Assembly: GCF_013408985.1 (NCBI RefSeq)
Contig: NZ_JACBZT010000001.1
Location: forward strand, 2,232,001 to 2,296,000
Origin: Petropleomorpha daqingensis
Lineage (GTDB): Bacteria; Actinomycetota; Actinomycetes; Mycobacteriales; Geodermatophilaceae
DNA length: 64,000 nt
Reading direction: 5' to 3'
Made by a program: the position numbers and the translations under genes. The notes below the pieces were generated by a model, which saw only the letters and a program-made list of their open reading frames with translations, did not search any database and was not told the DNA's origin. Every line of letters begins with the position of its first letter. Position 1 is the first letter of the stretch. Positions 29,047-30,379 of the stretch are shown here, one piece after another.

Positions 29047-29051
29047 CCGCC

Positions 29052-29087
29052 CGACAGGCCCCCGACGTCCGCGCCGGGGGCCTGTCG
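29052..29087. terminator. Bidirectional terminator between tRNA-Ser(GGA) and the EamA gene
   Basis: Arms 29052-29064 and 29075-29087 form a perfect 13-bp stem between the tRNA gene and the convergent transporter gene. It can end transcription from both sides. Confidence 0.85.
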
Positions 29088-29091
29088 CGTG

Positions 29092-30018
29092 TCAGACGGC
29101 GGACTCCAGCTCCGGCGCCCGCCCCAGCTCCCGGACGTAGAGCCCGGCGACGGCGGCCAGCATGAGCAGGCCGCCGACCACCGCGGCCGGGGCCAGCCGC
29201 TCGCCGAGGAACACCGTCGCCAGCACCGTCCCGGTCAGGGGCTCGAGCAGGGTGACGATCGATGCGACCGCTCCCGGCAGCGTCCGCACGCCGGTGAAGA
29301 ACAGGGTGTAGGCGAGCGCGCTGGGCACCAGACCGAGGTAGAGCAGGACGGCGATCGCCACCGGGTCGGCCGGGACGTGGAGCCCGACGGCCAGGACGAC
29401 CGGCGTGAGCAGCACGGCCCCGCCGGCGAACCCGGCCAGGGTCACCGGCACGCCGGCCGGCACGCTGCCCGAGGCGATCGTGACGACGGCGTAGCCGAGC
29501 GCCGAGCCCGCGGCGAGCAGCGCGCCGAGCAGCACCGCCGTCCCGGTGTCGAGACCCGCCGAGACCCCGACCAGCAGGGTCAGGCCGAGGAGGGCGACGA
29601 CGAGCGCGACCACCGTCGTCCGGCTGGGCCGGCCGTGCCCGAGCAGTGCCGCGCCGACCGCGATGAGCAGCGGCGCCAGGCCGAGCGCGACCAGGGTGGC
29701 GATGCTCACCCCGGCGCGGGCCACCGCGCTGAAGTAGGCGAGCTGGTAGGCGGCCAGGCCGGCGCCGATGAGCACCAGCCGGACGGCGACCGGGCGGGTG
29801 ACCCGGGTGCGGGTGGTGCGCCGGCGGGCGGTCAGCGCCCAGCCGGCCAGCAGGACCACCGCGCCGACGGCGAGGCGGTACCAGGCGATGTCGAGCGGGG
29901 ACAGATCGGTGCGGTCGGCGACGATCCGGCCGCTGATGCCCGAGGTCCCCCAGCACAGGGCGGCGAGGACGACGAGGGCGAACCCGCGGCGTGACGCGGG
30001 TGACGAGACGGTGTGCAT
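29092..30018 (-). CDS. EamA/DMT-family transporter
   Basis: The 308-residue protein has about ten transmembrane helices in two EamA repeats (first near 15-140, second near 165-300), beginning FALVVLAALCWGTSGISGRIV. Drug/metabolite transporters of this family usually export amino acids, nucleosides or toxic metabolites. ATG 30018 has AGGAG five bases upstream, but that Shine-Dalgarno sits inside an inverted-repeat leader with an upstream leader ORF. Expression is therefore probably controlled by translational attenuation. The substrate is unknown. Confidence 0.85.
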   Translation of the reverse strand: MHTVSSPASRRGFALVVLAALCWGTSGISGRIVADRTDLSPLDIAWYRLAVGAVVLLAGWALTARRRTTRTRVTRPVAVRLVLIGAGLAAYQLAYFSAVARAGVSIATLVALGLAPLLIAVGAALLGHGRPSRTTVVALVVALLGLTLLVGVSAGLDTGTAVLLGALLAAGSALGYAVVTIASGSVPAGVPVTLAGFAGGAVLLTPVVLAVGLHVPADPVAIAVLLYLGLVPSALAYTLFFTGVRTLPGAVASIVTLLEPLTGTVLATVFLGERLAPAAVVGGLLMLAAVAGLYVRELGRAPELESAV

Positions 30019-30140
30019 GACGCTCCTGACAGGGCGCGAGATCCGGGAGAGGGACTCGGTCCGGAGCGCGCAGCAGGAGGCCCGGGCCGTCGTGGCCCGG
30101 GCCGGGAGGCATCAGCCCCGCGGCGCTCCGGTCAGGAGCG
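30019..30140 (-). promoter_or_regulatory. Four-segment RNA switch controlling the EamA Shine-Dalgarno
   Basis: In transcript order, A (30140-30131, CGCTCCTGAC), B (30130-30123, CGGAGCGC), C (30069-30062, GCGCTCCG) and D (30030-30021, GTCAGGAGCG) are mutually complementary. A pairs with B (6 bp), B with C (8 bp), C with D (about 6 bp) and A with D (10 bp). D contains the Shine-Dalgarno of the transporter. A separate perfect 10-bp hairpin (30079-30088 with 30094-30103) lies between B and C. A 14-codon leader ORF ends in A. This is the layout of erm-type translational attenuators. Confidence 0.65.
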
Positions 30141-30176
30141 CGGAGGGGGCAGGACGAGCGCGCGTCGGTGCGTCAC
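30132..30176 (-). CDS. 14-aa leader peptide upstream of the EamA transporter
   Basis: GTG 30176 opens a short frame encoding MTHRRALVLPPPRS, ending with TGA inside the first switch segment. TACGCT (30184-30189) lies seven bases upstream of the GTG, the spacing expected for a leaderless mRNA. Three consecutive prolines before the end are a known ribosome-slowing context. A ribosome held on the last codons would open A:B and let B pair with C. The role is inferred from layout. Confidence 0.6.
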   Translation of the reverse strand: MTHRRALVLPPPRS

Positions 30177-30235
30177 GGGAGGCAGCGTAGCGGGGCGCAC
30201 GGCCGGGGTCCGCCGACTTTCCTCTACAGTGGTCG

Positions 30236-30327
30236 CAGACCCCTCGTGTGGCGTCACCCTGTGAACCTCCCCAGGGCCGGAAGGCAGCAAGGATAAGCGG
30301 GCTCTGGCGGGTGCGCGGGGGGTCCCT
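30236..30327 (+). ncRNA. ffs: Signal recognition particle RNA, small bacterial type
   Basis: The conserved SRP domain IV is evident: GTGAACCTCCCCAGG, then GGCCGGAAGGCAGCAAGG, then GCGGGCTCTGGCGGGTGCG. The ends pair (GACCCC near 30238 with GGGGTC near 30322). TACAGT at 30225-30230 is a suitable -10 box and a TTGTTTT stretch follows. It forms the core of the particle with Ffh for co-translational membrane targeting. End coordinates are approximate. Confidence 0.92.
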
Positions 30328-30379
30328 TGTTTTCCCCGACCTCCACGGACTCGTCGTGGGCAGCACGTAACCTCGGCGC

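Follow-up and report, generated by a model that had tools for sequence, protein, structure and literature searches.

A leaderless Pro-Pro-Pro leader peptide and a proposed RNA switch ahead of an EamA exporter gene in Actinomycetes

The leader locus and its neighbors

The window analyzed here is a 64,000-nt stretch of the Petropleomorpha daqingensis genome (contig NZ_JACBZT010000001.1), and all positions given below are positions within it. Its minus strand encodes an EamA/DMT-family transporter, ahead of which lie a short leader ORF and four RNA segments, A to D (Table 1). The transporter matches PF00892 over two stretches (E = 1.7e-29; 103 bits vs. a cut-off of 28), and a PDB sequence search found no relative among solved structures at E 0.001. 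The original prediction, which had recognized an EamA exporter as the target and placed its Shine–Dalgarno (SD) sequence in segment D, is supported on both points. A strong inverted repeat (29050-29089, minus strand) lies directly 3′ of the EamA stop codon, ahead of an opposite-strand tRNA gene; it is a possible terminator that lacks a T run.

Reading the minus strand confirmed the layout proposed for the leader, in which TACGCT is followed, after a gap of 7 nt, by a GTG (30176) opening an ORF of 14 codons that ends with TGA (30134-30132) within segment A. No canonical sigma-70 promoter was found by a scan that also demands a −35 hexamer. The −10 element was assigned because its position is conserved in homologs, not on the basis of that scan. 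Upstream, the SRP RNA gene starts ~45 nt from the leader −10 element and is then followed by dnaX; the SRP RNA gene adjoins the leader locus in the Geodermatophilaceae. Rfam covariance models yielded no matches for the window leader or for eight leader loci from other families, only the neighboring SRP RNA.

Table 1. Features of the leader–EamA locus, with positions in the window
Feature	Positions	Strand	Remarks
EamA/DMT-family transporter, 308 aa	29092..30018	minus	PF00892; regulated gene in the proposed switch; ATG at 30018
Segment D (UCAGGAGCG)	30021..30029	minus	Holds the EamA SD, AGGAG (30027-30023)
Segment C (GCGCUCCGG)	30061..30069	minus	Pairs with B (on) or D (off)
Hairpin GGCCCGGGCC-ACGAC-GGCCCGGGCC	30079..30103	minus	Perfect 10-bp stem between B and C; would bring B and C together
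Segment B (CCGGAGCGC)	30123..30131	minus	Pairs with A or C
Segment A (GCGCUCCUGA)	30132..30141	minus	End of leader ORF; pairs with B or D; A:B 5-7 bp in homologs
Leader ORF MTHRRALVLPPPRS-stop	30132..30176	minus	14 codons; GTG start at or adjoining the mRNA 5′ end (leaderless)
Pro10-Pro11-Pro12 codons CCC CCT CCG	30141..30149	minus	Predicted arrest site; prolines kept, third bases vary
−10 element TACGCT	30184..30189	minus	Leader–EamA transcript; TANNNT conserved in homologous loci
SRP RNA gene (RF00169)	30235-30330	plus	Divergent from leader; Rfam match

A leaderless PPPxx-stop ORF and RNA segments are linked to one EamA subfamily

Searching with the leader DNA recovered homologous stretches in related genomes that share one order. 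A TANNNT box, usually followed by a gap of 6–8 bases, precedes an ATG or GTG that opens a short ORF; next come segments A and B, a stretch of variable sequence that in most cases is a hairpin, segments C and D, and finally EamA. Nearly all of the loci keep the distance of 6–8 nt between box and leader start, and the start and −10 positions agree between leaders of the Geodermatophilaceae and Micromonosporaceae, which supports the claim that the peptide is leaderless. A leader pattern allowing up to two mismatches had matches in 46 of 115 Geodermatophilaceae genomes, compared with ~1 for a reversed control pattern. The family peptide is of the type MTPRRALVLPPPRS, conserved as xxxRRALVLPPPRS-stop, and rare exceptions to its PPPRS-stop tail in this family are PPPVS (L048) and PPPRSC (L005). 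Seven leaders (L014, L018, L035, L036, L047, L052, and L056) have in-frame inserts of 11–15 codons, with the start, the PPPRS-stop tail, and the ORF end all kept. These inserts, located inside the leader ORF, are palindromic, REP-like sequences of ~33–45 nt.

The leaderless ORF ending in PPPRS-stop, the four segments, and EamA are common to the Geodermatophilaceae and Micromonosporaceae; the ORF and the segments are both retained in orthologous leaders of different families, and the original prediction thereby withstands its refuting condition, the lack of both in such leaders. A scan of named genomes (from which a few pattern matches within unrelated sequence were set aside by eye) adds Micromonospora, Actinoplanes, Jidongwangia, Agreia, a Quadrisphaera MAG, and a Streptosporangiaceae MAG. 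The N-termini of these leaders differ (MRPFLGVLPPPRS, MSPFPGVLPPPRS, MTPFAGILPPPRS, MHRLFPITPPPRS), and the tail, leaderless start, segments, and EamA recur. In a scan of Microbacteriaceae, the matched strings besides that of Agreia resemble chance coding sequence, as judged from the strings alone, and Agreia looks like an isolated case within that family. A strict pattern combining PPPRS with GGAG, applied to the whole class, gave a convincing match in the window only, as other lineages have other residues after PPP.

A class-wide set was built on the transporter itself: 96 of 395 genomes had an EamA match at E below 1e-28, and 89 matches were scanned, with 420 nt upstream of each. A short ORF with PPP close to its end was found upstream of 62 of the 89 orthologs (~2.4 expected by chance), in 58 cases at leaderless spacing from a TANNNT box. 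The corresponding frequencies in Markov-shuffled upstream sequence are 2.7% and 0.04%, and no PPP leader occurs in 20 upstream regions of EamA paralogs. Five matches scored as negative hold near-variants with two prolines (MSSTVLSPPAA twice, MSSTALAPPVA, MHTRTLIVSPPAA, and MHRLFPVSPPSAS). The importance attached earlier to Pro-Pro-Pro is thereby strengthened, given that PPP, or at least PP, persists when its surroundings change.

The peptides are, as a rule, 11–16 aa long, and the distance from PPP to the stop is exactly two codons in nearly all of them. Their tails vary by lineage (LPPPAA, SPPPAR, TPPPAL, LPPPRS) within the form [VI][LTS]PPPxx, and a RAPP-like motif is absent. Across 138 leaders the proline codons are a mixture of CCC, CCG, CCT, and CCA; because the prolines persist while the third bases vary, PPP appears to be constrained as amino acids. 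The near invariance of RS-stop within the family is best explained by RNA, because AA, AR, or AL replaces RS in other lineages. The residues ahead of the prolines are constrained as well: among 62 distinct tails, position −1 is L, T, S, or C in 57 and position −2 is V or I in 46.

Linkage to the transporter is tight. In 61 Streptomycetaceae genomes, all 21 genome-wide matches to VLPPPA[AV]-stop precede a gene of the leader-bearing EamA subfamily, one per matched genome; thus, at least for this tail, the peptide serves the EamA gene rather than a regulon. In all five divergent actinobacterial genomes searched, the leader sits before exactly the best match to the window EamA (38–44% identity). 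All leader-bearing EamAs fall in one subfamily, and leader presence is clustered on its tree (0 of 500 shuffles). On this tree, which was built by a quick method, 13 changes of leader state are required, and the pattern is best read as a leader ancestral in the subfamily followed by several losses. Several EamA orthologs without the leader exist, including those at L017, L019, and L020. At L017 the leader has collapsed, and at L019 and L020 EamA itself looks leaderless, from the equivalent promoter position. Two other loci, L016 and L032, have a leader remnant (segments A and B with a degenerate peptide) with no detectable EamA adjoining. EamA neighborhoods, which were inspected by eye without in-depth annotation, are varied, with no common partner gene and no functional clue.

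Pairing and folding of the leader RNA

The four segments had been described as mutually complementary, and in the window all of the pairings can form: A:B with 7 bp, B:C with 9 bp, C:D with 6 bp plus one G-U, and A:D, for which the 10 bp originally counted are 9 bp plus one G-U. The hairpin between B and C appears in the minimum free energy (MFE) structure, and relatives have hairpins of different sequence at the equivalent place (by eye). Ahead of the EamA start, GGAG is conserved in homologs. The window leader is more stably folded than its shuffles (z = −3.5).

Within the Geodermatophilaceae, B:C is the only pairing that stands above shuffled partners (0 of 500). Directly beside the B:C core, 26 sequences have an A-U pair and nine a G-C pair, the opposite base of segment A being nearly always C. 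On the tree, both B:C partners change on three branches (P = 0.04), twice from A-U to G-C and once to a C-C mismatch. The C:D and A:D pairs hardly vary and show no covariation, and in the Micromonosporaceae A:B and C:D are likewise nearly invariant and form the consensus fold. Such invariance is to be expected when a segment has two or three partners. Over the broader set the RNA sequences differ between lineages, yet 130 of 137 leaders have the start of their best B:C helix within two bases of the position that follows the stop; the search was confined to the neighborhood of the stop, so this is supportive evidence rather than a clean test.

When A is masked, as by a ribosome in the proposal below, the median B:C pairing is 0.98 in the Geodermatophilaceae and 0.67 in the Micromonosporaceae. 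When both A and B are masked, median C:D pairing is 0.48 and 1.00, respectively. The simulations thus reproduce the exchange of B:C for C:D that the proposal predicts. The free full-length fold of the Geodermatophilaceae leaders contains little C:D (median 0.00). The predicted accessibility of the SD (from the partition function) rises from a mean of 0.07 in the free mRNA to 0.14 with A masked. This shift is modest, other pairings of D compete, and its direction is as expected in 67 of 76 leaders. Outside the two families, RNAduplex energies are weakly better than those of shuffles, and the class-wide result is mixed; cross-lineage swaps likewise support some of the pairings, in some lineages only. 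These mixed outcomes arise because GC-rich loops give strong chance helices. The topology claimed originally, that of erm-type attenuators with the SD in the fourth segment, is therefore found in the window and in the two families, and is weaker in other lineages.

One further candidate, in which the start of the leader pairs with that of EamA (AUGACGC:GCGUCAU), is present in the MFE structure and was rejected, as changes are uncompensated in L004, L015, and L025. In L207, L225, and L232 (f31 lineage), the bases that immediately follow B (ATCTCTCC) could pair directly with the SD region (GGAGAGAT), and SD hiding may be wired differently in that lineage.

Proposed mechanism, alternatives, and meaning

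From these comparisons we infer, with a probability of roughly 0.7, that the leader is a ribosome-operated, erm-like translational attenuator controlling EamA, with arrest and switching as its predicted steps. The mRNA would begin at or adjoining the leader GTG, where a ribosome would initiate without a leader and translate MTHRRALVLPPPRS. In normal translation it would reach the stop codon and cover B, so that C:D could pair; after its release A:B and C:D (or A:D) would form, and the EamA SD would be hidden either way. From its P-site codon, a ribosome usually extends 15–16 nt downstream. Should it lag at the prolines, with Pro11 and Pro12 occupying the P and A sites, respectively, its leading edge would reach the end of the stop codon. 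It would cover A and leave B free for the 9-bp B:C helix (aided by the intervening hairpin), D would be released, and EamA would be made. The idea that a ribosome held near the end of the leader would free B and release the SD is thus retained; the stall itself is now placed at the prolines rather than at the stop codon, because a ribosome at the stop would cover B. Likely triggers would be low Pro-tRNA, low EF-P activity, or some agent or metabolite (perhaps one that EamA exports) that prevents the formation of Pro-Pro bonds.

The conserved [VI][LTS] before PPP suggests that the nascent peptide may help to set the arrest. In E. coli, L, T, S, or C before PPP weakens EF-P-dependent stalling (PMC4176338), so PPP in the present peptides may not stall unaided. 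The leader would then be tuned to respond to a condition rather than to stall by itself. Tentatively, nascent [VI][LTS]PPP could be a receptor that, together with the small molecule exported by EamA, arrests the ribosome, in an ancient, class-wide arrangement; the exporter would then be induced by its own substrate. To our knowledge, no polyproline-based, ligand-dependent arrest leader was previously known, and this would be the first.

The same RNA switch could also be driven by other signals. It is possible, though we lean against it, that the proline codons sense charged tRNA-Pro (or its m1G37 methylation) and that the peptide sequence is irrelevant. The run of regulatory codons directly before the switch would suit this, and Salmonella mgtP, which responds to low proline through three consecutive Pro codons, works with the remaining ORF scrambled; two prolines suffice in some relatives of both systems (PMC3641672). 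Codon sensing, however, needs no constraint on the residues before PPP, in which the L/T/S/C and V/I preferences are pronounced, and proline starvation would be a strange reason to induce an exporter, unless its substrate is a proline analog or the protein is an importer. That the leader is a sensor of EF-P or of general polyproline stress, with PPP arrest under limiting EF-P turning the exporter on, seems unlikely to us. PPP is the canonical EF-P-dependent arrest motif (PMC4176338), and loss of EF-P raises Salmonella mgtCB and mgtA mRNA via proline leaders (PMC6460261), but the residues conserved before PPP are those that reduce such stalling, and the neighborhoods, within their shallow annotation, offer no EF-P clue. 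A further doubtful candidate is a drug-inducible resistance leader of the erm/cat kind, in which a ribosome-bound antibiotic would arrest at [VI][LTS]PPP and induce its own exporter. The topology and type of target fit, the constraint on the nascent chain would fit arrest by drug plus peptide, and many hosts are soil actinomycetes; against it, the system appears ancestral in the EamA subfamily, which would give it a greater age and a wider role than a gene dedicated to resistance would have. We know of no drug that acts at PPP in such a manner.

Two other readings concern the output rather than the signal. Transcription is the presumed level of action of many actinobacterial leader peptides (PMC1262725, PMC8079986), and the choice between B:C and C:D might decide termination or read-through instead of SD exposure. 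We regard this as distinctly improbable, since D holds the SD and the region of the gene start, and a search for intrinsic terminators found no such hairpin with a T run in the window. The last reading, to which we give almost no weight, is that there is no regulation: the ORF would be a relic of an older upstream EamA start, as L019 and L020 translating EamA leaderless from the equivalent promoter position might suggest, or would be conserved only through overlap with the divergent SRP RNA promoter, which the locus abuts in the Geodermatophilaceae. However, genomes in which the upstream sequence is different, Micromonospora and Streptomyces-type ones among them, still have the leader, and PPP is kept as amino acids despite varying third bases. 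The counts reported above for EamA orthologs (62/89), paralogs (0/20), and Streptomycetaceae matches (21/21) largely contradict this reading.

Taking the leader as an erm-like attenuator, its nearest known relative in principle would be mgtP, a leader that switches between stem-loops in response to proline and EF-P (PMC3641672, PMC6460261); the sensing end would resemble mgtP and the output end ermC. As in mgtP and mgtL (of the mgtCBR operon and mgtA), a short ORF with proline codons precedes a transporter-related gene, and in those systems slow decoding of the prolines flips competing stem-loops and raises expression. The present leaders also have conserved consecutive Pro codons where a stalled ribosome would decide the fold. 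The enterobacterial leaders serve Mg2+ transport and virulence genes and exert their control mainly at transcription elongation, and mgtP is equipped with an SD-like sequence of its own, whereas the leader described here is leaderless, actinobacterial, and located before an EamA exporter, with predicted SD sequestration and a [VI][LTS]PPPxx-stop tail. With ermC-type attenuators it shares the leader peptide, the 1:2/3:4 versus 2:3 RNA arrangement, and the target SD in the last segment; the short ORF lies directly upstream of its target, and codon-level constraint and in-frame inserts are consistent with its translation. It differs in its target (a DMT exporter, not a methyltransferase), its leaderless start, and its putative arrest motif, PPP.

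Streptomyces leuL, trpL, and ilvL are likewise short leaderless ORFs that contain regulatory codons and have alternative hairpins downstream (PMC1262725, PMC8079986), but such leaders precede biosynthesis, tRNA-synthetase, or uptake genes, and neither paper mentions proline in its main text, as judged by a term search. Pro-Pro arrest in a regulatory nascent peptide is also described for RAPP-type ApdA and ApdP (PMC10951233); these carry the RAPP motif, which the present peptide lacks, and are associated with protein-localization genes. We found no earlier description in literature searches on the peptide motifs and on EamA leaders, whose coverage leaves out many subscription papers.

In much of the Actinomycetes, Streptomyces-type genomes and Micromonospora among them, a conserved peptide of ~12 residues is thus tied to a single subfamily of orphan exporters. 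The proposal predicts that whatever stalls ribosomes at Pro-Pro-Pro turns the EamA exporter on. It would extend the small group of known proline-codon attenuators by one that is leaderless and translational, and would offer a simple route to the substrate of the exporter as well as, in a bacterial group that produces many antibiotics, a natural reporter for stalling at polyproline.
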